DNA from: Klebsiella aerogenes
GTDB taxonomy: Bacteria; Pseudomonadota; Gammaproteobacteria; Enterobacterales; Enterobacteriaceae
Assembly: GCA_029027985.1 (NCBI GenBank)
Contig: CP119076.1
Location: forward strand, 3,160,422 to 3,224,421
Length of the DNA: 64,000 nt
Direction of reading: 5' to 3'
Part shown: piece after piece, positions 1-16,059 of the stretch
How the letters are laid out: every line of letters starts with the position of its first letter
Numbering within the stretch: the first letter of the stretch is position 1
Notes under the pieces: model-generated
What the model saw: only the letters and a program-made list of their open reading frames with translations
What the model was told of the DNA's origin: nothing
Database searches by the model: none
Translations under genes and position numbers: made by a program

Positions 1-952
1 ATTTTACCAGCGCCAGAATACTGACCGCGTTGCCGCCTAGTTTTATTTCGTTTTCAACATCGCAAAGAAACGCTGCCTGTCGCCCATCGGCGAGAGTGCG
101 AACGGAAATAAGATTGTTGACCAGGTAGCCAATCGCCCGATCAATCGCCTGACGGAGGTGCGGCTGTTTGGTCGCCTCCCATCCTTCTATCAGCGAATAG
201 GTAGAGCTGGCGTGACGTAAGGCATTATAGGAACGTACCGGGCGGTCGAAGCAGGGGAACCATCCATAGTAATAAAGCCCATCTTTTTTTACCTGGCGGG
301 CTAAATAATCGCTCCCCTTTTTAATCACATCCGTCAGACAGCTTTTTTGCCATTCATCGCCGATAACGCGGTAACCGGAGCTGCGGCCGCTATGCTCAAT
401 AAGCTTCGCGCCGCTACGGTCACAGAAGATCGAGCGAGTTTTGAAACGCCACAGTATCTGCTGCGGATCGCTCGGCCAGCTCAGACTTTGTTTAAAGCGC
501 CGTTGACCGTAGTTCTCCAGATTGACACCATTCGGTGCCGCAACGCCATTATCTCCATCATACAGTAAGGCATTCGCTGCGATTTCTTGCTCGAGAATCG
601 CCTGGTTAAATTGCGCATCAAAAGAAAGACCGAAGCGGAAATAATTGCGTTTGGTGATGCTAAGTTTCTTCTGTAAGTTTTCCCAACTTAATTTTTCAAC
701 GCTATCGACAATATCAATACGCAGCCACTGTGGCTCATTATCCTGTTTTTTACGCCACTCCTGCAGGGCTCTCGCGCCGGTAAGCCAGGCTTGATCGAAA
801 CTGGCGGCCGTTGCCACCTGAACATGCGCCCGCGCCTTGCTATCACTGACGCTAAAAAAGATGACCCACCCAGGATAATCAGCAGGCAGCGCGGTCGTTT
901 TTAATGGTTTGCTCTGAAAACAAGCCTGTTGTAATAAATCGCTTAATGCCAT
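1..952 (-). CDS. Unrecognised protein of the adhesin operon (C-terminus beyond the window)
   Basis: An open frame starts at an ATG at 952, eight bases after a GGAG ribosome binding site, and reads 317 codons to the window edge without a stop. The N-terminal ~180 residues contain W-L-R-I-D and Y-F-R-F-G-L-S-F-D stretches. The second part (about residues 215-317) has the motif [20 protein letters not shown] followed by HASSTYSL, then [14 protein letters not shown] near the edge. This alternation of helices and aromatic or glycine motifs resembles (alpha/alpha)-barrel 'six-hairpin' enzymes such as glycosidases and epimerases, but I cannot assign a family. I see no signal peptide, so it is probably cytoplasmic. 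It lies 54 bases after the HlyD-like gene and is probably the last visible gene of the adhesin/type I secretion run. A role in modifying or handling the Ser-Asp protein is inference from position only. Confidence 0.75.
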
Positions 953-1006
953 TTCAAATCTCCATACATTGAAAATTTCACCAAACATGAAGCCAACTTG
1001 TGGGTA

Positions 1007-14900: not shown

Positions 14901-16059
14901 AATCCGAGTCACTGTCCGAGTCCGAGTCGCTGTCCGAATCCGAGTCGCTGTCACTATCCGAGTCACTGTCGGAGTCGGAGTCACTGTCAGCATCGGAGTC
15001 AGAGTCGCTGTCACTATCCGAATCGCTGTCGGAGTCCGAGTCGCTGTCACTATCCGAGTCACTGTCCGAGTCCGAATCGCTGTCCGAATCCGAATCGCTG
15101 TCAGAGTCCGAGTCGCTGTCAGAGTCCGAGTCGCTGTCACTATCCGAGTCGCTGTCGGAGTCCGAGTCGCTGTCAGAGTCAGAGTCGCTGTCCGAATCCG
15201 AGTCGCTGTCAGAGTCCGAGTCGCTGTCACTATCCGAGTCACTGTCAGAATCGGAGTCGCTGTCAGAATCCGAGTCGCTGTCAGAATCCGAGTCGCTGTC
15301 GGAATCCGAGTCGCTGTCAGAATCGGAGTCGCTGTCGGAATCAGAATCGCTGTCGGAGTCGGAGTCGCTGTCAGAATCGGAGTCACTGTCGGAATCGGAG
15401 TCGCTGTCAGAGTCCGAATCACTGTCGGAGTCCGAATCGCTGTCGGAGTCGCTGTCCGAATCGGAGTCGCTATCAGCATCGGAGTCACTATCCGAATCCG
15501 AGTCACTGTCCGAGTCCGAATCGCTGTCGGAGTCACCTTCATGTTCGTGGCCGCCAAGATCAGAGTCGCTGTCGGAATCCGAATCACTGTCCGCATCAGA
15601 GTCGGTATCATCGTTATGAGAATGTGACGAATGATCTTTATCGGATGATCCCGCGATCATGGCCCCTACGCCAAGCAATGCCGCTCCCGCCATGACCCAT
15701 GGAGCAATACTGCCACCGGAGCTTCCAGCGGCTAAAAGTCCGGAAATATCGCCAATTAGCGAATAATGCGCATCGCTGGTTCCTGCCCCCTCAAGCCACC
15801 ATAACGCACCATTGTCATCATCCTGCAGAACTAAATCGCTATGGTGTCCGTTAGCATCATTAACAAAAAAATTTTTAAGCGTGACAGTACTACCGTCATT
15901 TATTTTCAGAACAAGATCATTACCTTGCCTGGCGAAGGAATTAATATCCTCCCGTCTAATATGCAATACCACTACTGACTGCGTGTTTAAGTTAACTTGG
16001 TTACCATCAATGGTGTATTTCACACCGGTATCTTTTGCTGTCACATTTATATTTTTCAT
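5971..16059 (-). CDS. Giant Ser-Asp repeat adhesin, BapA/LapA-like type I secretion substrate
   Basis: I chose the ATG at 16059 ([10 protein letters not shown]) because AAGGG lies nine bases upstream; product 3,362 residues. Residues 1-115 resemble the BapA 'prefix' domain. A hydrophobic stretch (119-137) and a His-rich patch (143-173) follow. Ser-Asp repeats cover about 153-2078 and 2365-2664, with occasional Ala for Ser. Between and after them lie two related modules (about 2079-2364 and 2665-2950), each beginning ANDDT and containing TEDxT and GxYTYxxxGxxxxIGKxDVFTYT, which resembles VCBS/cadherin-like folds. The last ~110 residues ([20 protein letters not shown], then [15 protein letters not shown]) match the VC_A0849-type type I secretion target signal. 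The protein should be exported by the adjacent cassette and act at the cell surface in adhesion or biofilm formation; that role is inferred from family. The Ser-Asp stalk is very acidic and probably extended. Confidence 0.95.
8070..8966 (-). repeat. Ser-Asp repeat block 2 of the adhesin gene
   Basis: About 0.9 kb of 18-bp units, each GAY AGY GAY TCN GAY TCN on the coding strand, encoding Asp-Ser hexapeptides. Only a few units deviate, for example double AGY codons near 8490. Units are multiples of 6 bp, so gain or loss keeps the frame. The block is bounded by DIVLEANDD on one side and [10 protein letters not shown] on the other. Confidence 0.97.
9826..15604 (-). repeat. Ser-Asp repeat block 1 of the adhesin gene
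   Basis: About 5.8 kb of the same 18-bp unit, broken only near its 5' end by a Gly-His-Glu patch (about 15530-15560). Superimposed are longer duplications: 11302-11519 reads the same as 13204-13421, and 14251-14550 nearly the same as 14581-14880. Every third Ser codon is AGY and the others are TCN. Repeat tracts of this size are prone to assembly collapse, so the length should be treated as a property of this assembly. Confidence 0.97.

Follow-up and report, generated by a model that had tools for sequence, protein, structure and literature searches.

Surface proteins with serine-aspartate (Ser-Asp, SD) stalks, and the transferases encoded at their loci, are well described from staphylococci (PMC3794999, PMC7029136, PMC4850167 and PMC8360574, all in excerpt). 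As excerpted, PMC3794999 reports a cell-free assay in which SdgB added sugar to SD repeats, refers to the same in E. coli, and describes SdgA and SdgB as shielding SD-repeat proteins from cathepsin G. Very long Ser-Asp repeats in Klebsiella were in print in 2012, with 424 copies in K. pneumoniae MGH 78578 (excerpt of PMC3324548), and Listeria lmo1799 carries 226 Ala-Asp (AD) repeats (excerpt of PMC8687577). In the present study we analysed a window of 64,000 nucleotides from Klebsiella aerogenes (contig CP119076.1, positions 3,160,422 to 3,224,421), one end of which holds a minus-strand run of five genes, i.e. a giant Ser-Asp adhesin, three type I exporter genes and a fifth gene that runs past the window edge. 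The genome of the window (G000, 5.0 Mb) was used to complete the fifth gene and to add a sixth. The best explanation of the five-gene run and the sixth gene is that they form one adhesin system, and the reading that we favour, with a probability of about 0.75 on sequence evidence, is that in this system the fifth protein is a cytoplasmic O-glycosyltransferase of the stalk, acting before type I export.

The adhesin gene (window positions 5971-16059, minus strand, ATG at 16059) encodes 3,362 residues, and its stalk totals 2,220 residues when those within runs of at least six X-Asp units are counted (X being Ser, Ala, Thr or Gly in the proteins described below); both numbers reproduce those of the initial annotation. 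The longest open frame in the open reading frame (ORF) listing begins at a GTG at 16134. The stalk is divided into two stretches with a globular module between them, the first covering residues 176-2079 (9823-15534; 1,904 residues, comprising 929 Ser, 952 Asp and 23 Ala) and the second residues 2366-2663 (8071-8964; 298 residues, comprising 146 Ser, 149 Asp and 3 Ala), and outside the stalks there are two globular regions only. The whole protein contains 1,226 Asp plus Glu against 26 Lys plus Arg, and no Cys. At its N-terminus lies a BapA prefix-like domain (residues 1-122, 15694-16059; PF22783, E 5.8e-38, 129.8 bits, cut-off 27), and this end is also over the cut-off of NF033677 (75.8 bits against 35). 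The distal globular part (residues 2665-3362, 5974-8067) exceeds the cut-offs of NF045619 (194.7 bits, cut-off 180) and of Big_9 (27.3 bits, cut-off 23.6), the one Pfam family over its cut-off in this C-terminal part, and ends in a type I secretion C-terminal target domain (residues 3280-3360, 5980-6222; TIGR03661, 53.7 bits, cut-off 17.6); a Pfam scan of the whole adhesin gave BapA_N only. As far as sequence can tell, the adhesin is a type I-secreted protein of the BapA/Bap/LapF family with a Ser-Asp stalk, and the BapA prefix, NF045619 and TIGR03661, all over cut-off, bear out the earlier description of an enterobacterial surface protein that carries such a stalk by another secretion route.

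We also considered and rejected the identification of the adhesin as a Clf/Sdr protein (MSCRAMM). It does exceed the NCBIfam cut-offs for ClfA (NF033609, 1293.9 against 1150) and ClfB (NF033845, 1240 against 999), but the best-matching stretches fall within or at the end of the Ser-Asp repeat, no ligand-binding A domain was found with Pfam, the C-terminus is a type I signal, and no LPXTG or sortase signal was seen by eye. Since the repeat of an unrelated adhesin passes these cut-offs, automatic annotation may misname such proteins. The opposite strand of the repeat is likewise open (a frame of 2,053 amino acids on the plus strand), which we take as an effect of the repeat. A promoter scan upstream of the adhesin gave three sites, none of them on the adhesin strand, with a mean of 3.2 in shuffled sequences.

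Downstream of the adhesin, on the same strand, lie genes for a TolC-family outer-membrane channel (4368-5828; TIGR01844, 286.7 bits, cut-off 225), a type I permease/ATPase of the LssB/LapB type (2224-4371; TIGR03375, 751.5 bits, cut-off 693) and an HlyD-type periplasmic adaptor (1007-2227; TIGR01843, 321.9 bits, cut-off 209). With all three profiles over cut-off, a cognate type I exporter is present, as had been annotated; 142 bases separate the adhesin from the first TolC start, the three exporter genes overlap by 4 bases, and the first ATG of the fifth gene follows 18 bases after the HlyD gene. The locus has in common with the BapA/Bap/LapF systems the BapA prefix, the NF045619 region, the TIGR03661 signal and the TolC/ATP-binding cassette (ABC)/HlyD exporter. 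It differs from them in that the Ig-like or cadherin-like repeat stalk, which is usual though not strictly required in that family, is absent and a Ser-Asp stalk takes up most of the length, in the presence of a putative stalk enzyme in the operon, and in the lack of a LapG match.

Only the N-terminal 329 residues of the fifth gene lie in the window (2-988, minus strand). The complete gene (L009:9818-12988, minus strand) encodes 1,056 amino acids from its first ATG, and its two closest full-length homologues have 1,044, which corresponds to a start at the second ATG (MALSDLL...). The initial annotation, working from a gene cut by the window edge, had called it unrecognised; this holds for residues 13-565, hereafter the N-domain, over which no Pfam or NCBIfam family reached its cut-off, and fails for the C-terminal half, which is SdgA/SdgB-like. 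For residues 694-1031 the best NCBIfam families were SdgA (E 2.8e-40) and SdgB (E 5.3e-39), the next following at 3.5e-21, and the best PDB chains were 7ec7, 7ec3 and 7ec1 (E 8e-29), which we take to be SdgB structures. The motifs EX7E (944), RYSxEK (867) and HSxH (790), presumably donor-site elements, are kept in the alignment, and residues 694-1031, which correspond to the catalytic GT-B half, align with profile positions 156-493. The fifth gene is in addition the sole strong SdgB-like gene of its own genome (136 bits, the runner-up scoring 21). The modifying enzyme whose existence had been raised as a possibility thus has a plausible candidate in the SdgA/SdgB-like half of this protein. PADLOC gave no match for the fifth or the sixth gene, and a function in anti-phage defence was rejected.

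Like the SdgA/SdgB system, the locus combines a Ser-Asp stalk with a homologous GT4/GT-B domain encoded beside it; here, however, the transferase is fused to the N-domain without the N-terminal part of SdgB, and the adhesin bears a type I signal. Another close system is the S. epidermidis sdrF locus (NZ_CP121525), where the N-domain gene is flanked by sdrF and by a gene resembling SdgB (611 bits), although N-domain and transferase are separate genes there, the transferase lies on the other strand and the surface protein is Gram-positive. Because of the SdgA/SdgB homology and the occurrence of the N-domain at the staphylococcal sdr locus, the earlier suggestion that the same stalk chemistry had been reached separately is probably wrong. 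In Listeria, an LPXTG protein with an Ala-Asp stalk, which we assume from gene neighbourhood to be lmo1799-like, has an N-domain gene directly downstream and no transferase near.

The linkage of these domains to X-Asp stalks was examined from both sides. Strong N-domain matches occur in 25 of 295 family genomes (10 fused to GT4 and 15 without GT4, two of the latter with GT2), the remaining matches of that search being generic glycosyltransferases. Among the 22 of these loci that were examined, 21 show an X-Asp repeat protein, one being credited via L015, a public contig with the same content, and the last locus ends at a contig edge. In a wider, non-random sample, an X-Asp surface protein adjoins the N-domain at 48 of 74 loci from Gram-negative and Gram-positive bacteria, the sdrF locus included; X-Asp units were summed over every ORF of a locus, adhesin pieces split by stops or contig ends included, and the counts of three loci and our own were entered by hand from other tallies. 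The co-occurrence of the fifth gene with such adhesins, which the initial annotation had proposed to follow, is therefore borne out for the N-domain in this sample. Chance association was rejected, as none of 20 arbitrary 20-kb stretches of the same genomes contained X-Asp repeats, N-domain, glycosyltransferase, Mur ligase or ATP-grasp over the thresholds.

From the side of the adhesin, its last 191 residues found family loci in 54 of the 295 genomes, of which 50 were examined and four left out. All seven loci with a visible X-Asp stalk have the N-domain and/or an Sdg-like enzyme (five both, one the transferase only and one the N-domain only), whereas 40 of the 43 without a visible stalk have neither and three have both; a stalk came to light when more sequence was read for two of these three (L015 and L193), and the third runs into a contig edge. 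For many ordinary adhesins the first stretch covered the C-terminal ~2,600 residues only, and extension upstream of 20 of the 40 enzyme-free loci revealed X-Asp in none. The repeat-free ends, a second point that had been singled out for comparison, matched BapA-family adhesins; in the C-terminal family, most loci without a visible stalk lack the enzymes as well.

This distribution bears on the idea that the fifth protein modifies some other acceptor (lipopolysaccharide, capsule or a teichoic acid-like polymer) and only hitchhikes with the adhesin. GT4 domains are versatile, and the database names of the fifth protein include poly(glycerol-phosphate) alpha-glucosyltransferase; moreover, no X-Asp protein lies near 18 of 39 ligase-type N-domain loci, so that the N-domain has other settings, and an SdgA-like fusion in the uncultured Selenomonadales locus L021 is likewise without X-Asp as far as seen. 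With L021 set apart, however, an X-Asp stalk is present at 18 of 19 transferase-type loci, the other of which starts at a contig edge, and the enzyme is missing from 40 of the 43 loci of the same adhesin family that have no visible stalk. To our knowledge teichoic acids do not occur in Enterobacteriaceae, and we regard another acceptor as quite improbable. A teichoic-acid glucosyltransferase identity, which rests on the database name only, was rejected.

A more serious rival turns on the N-domain. On this account the transferase domain would be only a binding or glycan-polymerizing module, and the N-domain the true stalk modifier, acting on Asp. The N-domain does track X-Asp stalks irrespective of the residue X, which can be Ser, Ala or Thr and at one locus is Gly, and it is strongly conserved, with 85 invariant columns in 55 homologues with varied partners and 30 in 14 more distant members. 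It also has weak matches to (alpha/alpha)-barrel enzymes, i.e. GH88 in five and GH127 in four of the 14 members. These matches are weak (best E 1.9e-5) and uninformative about Asp, however, and one locus (G119) combines a Ser-Asp stalk with an SdgA-like transferase, no N-domain being found in the stretch. A PDB search with the N-domain alone reached a best E of 0.38 only, and one with a 14-row profile gave a GH76 mannanase chain, 4v1r, at E 0.008. We judge modification of Asp by the N-domain unlikely and prefer stalk glycosylation by the GT-B half.

Several observations nevertheless weigh against stalk glycosylation by the fifth protein. The SdgA and SdgB scores (138.3 and 134.2) are far below the curated whole-protein cut-off of 800 because only the second two-thirds of the profile, positions ~156-493, is aligned, the N-terminal part of SdgB being missing; what the fifth protein contains is, by sequence, a homologous domain, and it is not an SdgA/SdgB member as curated. 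As many as 26 of the 74 N-domain loci have no X-Asp protein in the stretch examined, the partner in 18 of these cases being a Mur ligase or an ATP-grasp enzyme, which indicates that the N-domain also has a stalk-free setting. G119 and its counterpart G195, where a stalk and an N-domain occur with no transferase nearby, indicate that neither domain is always present. In addition, the fused transferase of L072 is encoded beside a stalk that consists mostly of Ala-Asp and is truncated by a contig end, and the SdgA-like fusion of L021 has no X-Asp protein within 15 kb. Extra flanks of four stalk-free genomes added no X-Asp, save that L104 lies ~14 kb from a Ser-Asp frame, which was counted with L107 on the same contig.

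N-domain-Mur ligase fusions, some with CapA, are found at L104, L105, L110, L111, L115 and L117-L123, where no X-Asp was seen in the stretch examined, and L021 is a mixed cluster that has, besides three N-domain genes and the SdgA-like fusion, a homologue of the sixth gene and genes for Mur ligase and CapA-like proteins. At the stalk-free Mur-ligase loci the substrate may be a non-ribosomal polymer that contains Asp. More generally, the N-domain occurs alone or fused to GT4, GT2, Mur ligase, ATP-grasp or CapA (120 of 1,122 protein clusters listed; partner domains were typed by Pfam on eight chosen proteins), and databases name such proteins after their neighbours, e.g. Mur ligase, poly(glycerol-phosphate) glucosyltransferase or GH127. 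At E up to 1e-20, a sample of 398 genomes from a phylum and one of 151 genomes from a second family yielded 13 carriers each; among 369 genomes sampled from a class there were 10 with E up to 0.001, most of them weak matches. Of 72,556 plasmid records 54 carry it, including records from Staphylococcus, Listeria and Enterococcus; 11 of the 13 examined have at least 12 X-Asp units, an Acinetobacter baumannii plasmid having eight units only, in an upstream frame, and a Variovorax plasmid none. In three staphylococcal plasmids an Ala/Ser-Asp protein lies on one side of the N-domain and Mur ligase sequence on the other, in one of them in pieces only, and two Agrobacterium plasmids carry it fused to Mur ligase or ATP-grasp next to an Ala-Asp BapA-type adhesin. 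In E. coli the fifth gene is plasmid-borne in three of 5,426 genomes, all frog isolates. The one of these three plasmids that was examined (NZ_CP100988, L095) has the adhesin, the exporter and the sixth gene together with hspQ next to IS66. Its record shows the open adhesin frame of 3,565 codons as a BapA-prefix pseudogene, along with hypothetical proteins in antisense.

Across these loci the type of catalytic partner appears to follow the stalk residue X. Loci with a fused or neighbouring transferase have a Ser- or Thr-rich stalk in 17 of 18 cases, and those with a Mur ligase or ATP-grasp partner an Ala-rich one in 19 of 21 (Fisher p 6e-8 for the two classes by repeat type); with neither partner, eight of nine stalks are Ala- or Gly-rich. 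L021, without X-Asp, was counted apart, and the partner-class hidden Markov models were built from 1-11 hand-chosen rows. GT2 fusions pair with Thr-Asp stalks (L087 and L088, one genus) and Gly-Asp is found at one locus, L116, where the (Gly-Asp)n protein (5783-8953, plus strand) lies directly 5' of a lone N-domain gene; the exceptions are L072, L090 and L107, with L089 in the partnerless class. At L068 a frame of 2,032 codons (9363-15458, minus strand) with ~700 X-Asp units, mostly Thr-Asp, stands next to a weak N-domain homologue. The loci are related, and an N-domain tree of 71 of the 74, made by a quick method, has five partner switches and four independent pairs on well-supported branches, across which the repeat changes in step with the partner in 3.4 on average and against it in 0.0. 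As four independent pairs cannot reach significance (sign test p 0.125 at best), we treat the partner-repeat rule as suggestive. The same relatedness could be read as saying that the linkage reflects inheritance of one old operon and not function. Since the pairing recurs in different gene orders and with different exporters or anchors (type I export with either a BapA or a LapA-like prefix, and LPXTG or YSIRK proteins), we find this hardly credible.

These data allow a bolder proposal, which we hold tentatively and think doubtful as a whole, that the N-domain founds an unrecognized cross-phylum kit in which one stalk-handling domain is combined with interchangeable catalytic partners. GT4 or GT2 would serve stalks with X = Ser or Thr, and the amide-forming Mur ligase or ATP-grasp enzymes those with Ala, which has no hydroxyl; the latter would build amino acid or peptide side chains on the Asp carboxylates of ribosomally made (X-Asp)n stalks. 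A non-ribosomal parallel to such side-chain building on Asp is the Mur-ligase half of cyanophycin synthetase.

Building on gene order, domain homology and linkage, we propose for the K. aerogenes system that the adhesin is synthesized in the cytoplasm as a chain that is extremely acidic and probably unfolded, and whose export must follow complete synthesis given the C-terminal position of the type I signal. The fifth protein would bind the Ser-Asp stalk, probably via the N-domain, and its C-terminal GT-B domain would add a sugar to the stalk serines, most likely an N-acetylhexosamine from a uridine diphosphate sugar, like SdgB. We infer sugar transfer from the SdgA/SdgB homology and the linkage to X-Asp stalks, and assign it to the cytoplasm in view of the C-terminal type I signal and the cytosolic location of sugar donors. 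The TolC/ABC/HlyD exporter would then release the chain C-terminus first, while the BapA-type prefix, judging from the family, would retain the adhesin in the envelope. The outcome would be a long, stiff, sugar-coated and protease-resistant stalk of up to ~1,900 residues, with the distal globular part far from the cell.

The sixth gene (L009:8798-9757, minus strand, outside the window) starts 60 bases after the fifth and is followed by hspQ. Its product of 319 amino acids is apparently secreted (signal peptide by eye) and has a sub-threshold match to the putative metalloprotease family NF045524 (51.6 bits against 140); a gluzincin-like HExFH...EGxARW motif is invariant in 21 of 21 homologues, and a PDB search found no structure at E 1. 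Homologues are present at 21 of the 74 N-domain loci, some without an adhesin seen, and also by N-domain genes in Selenomonadales and Desulfovibrio contigs. No LapG (Peptidase_C93, PF06035) was matched in the window's own genome, the same search being positive in one of 14 control genomes, that of Caulobacter. Given this lack of a LapG match, the sixth protein may replace LapG-type release and trim or release the adhesin, although this is a speculative guess. The block is flanked by hspQ on one side and on the other by a yccU-like gene, with a 99-codon frame (window 16628-16927, minus strand) between the latter and the adhesin; on the hspQ side, 1,957 bases of a 2.1-kb stretch align with K. 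pneumoniae ATCC 13883 at 81.6% DNA identity.

In the openly licensed literature, which leaves subscription journals and preprints mostly uncovered, we found among the matches listed no paper that joins Ser-Asp stalks, type I export and SdgA/B-like enzymes, nor one on X-Asp stalks with Mur ligases or describing the N-domain. If our reading is true, glycosylation of Ser-Asp stalks would not be a staphylococcal speciality, as Klebsiella-type bacteria would use a homologous enzyme on a type I adhesin. A function would in addition be assigned to a conserved domain now named after its neighbours, and a second chemistry would be predicted on the Ala-Asp stalks of Listeria, Agrobacterium and relatives of Citrobacter.

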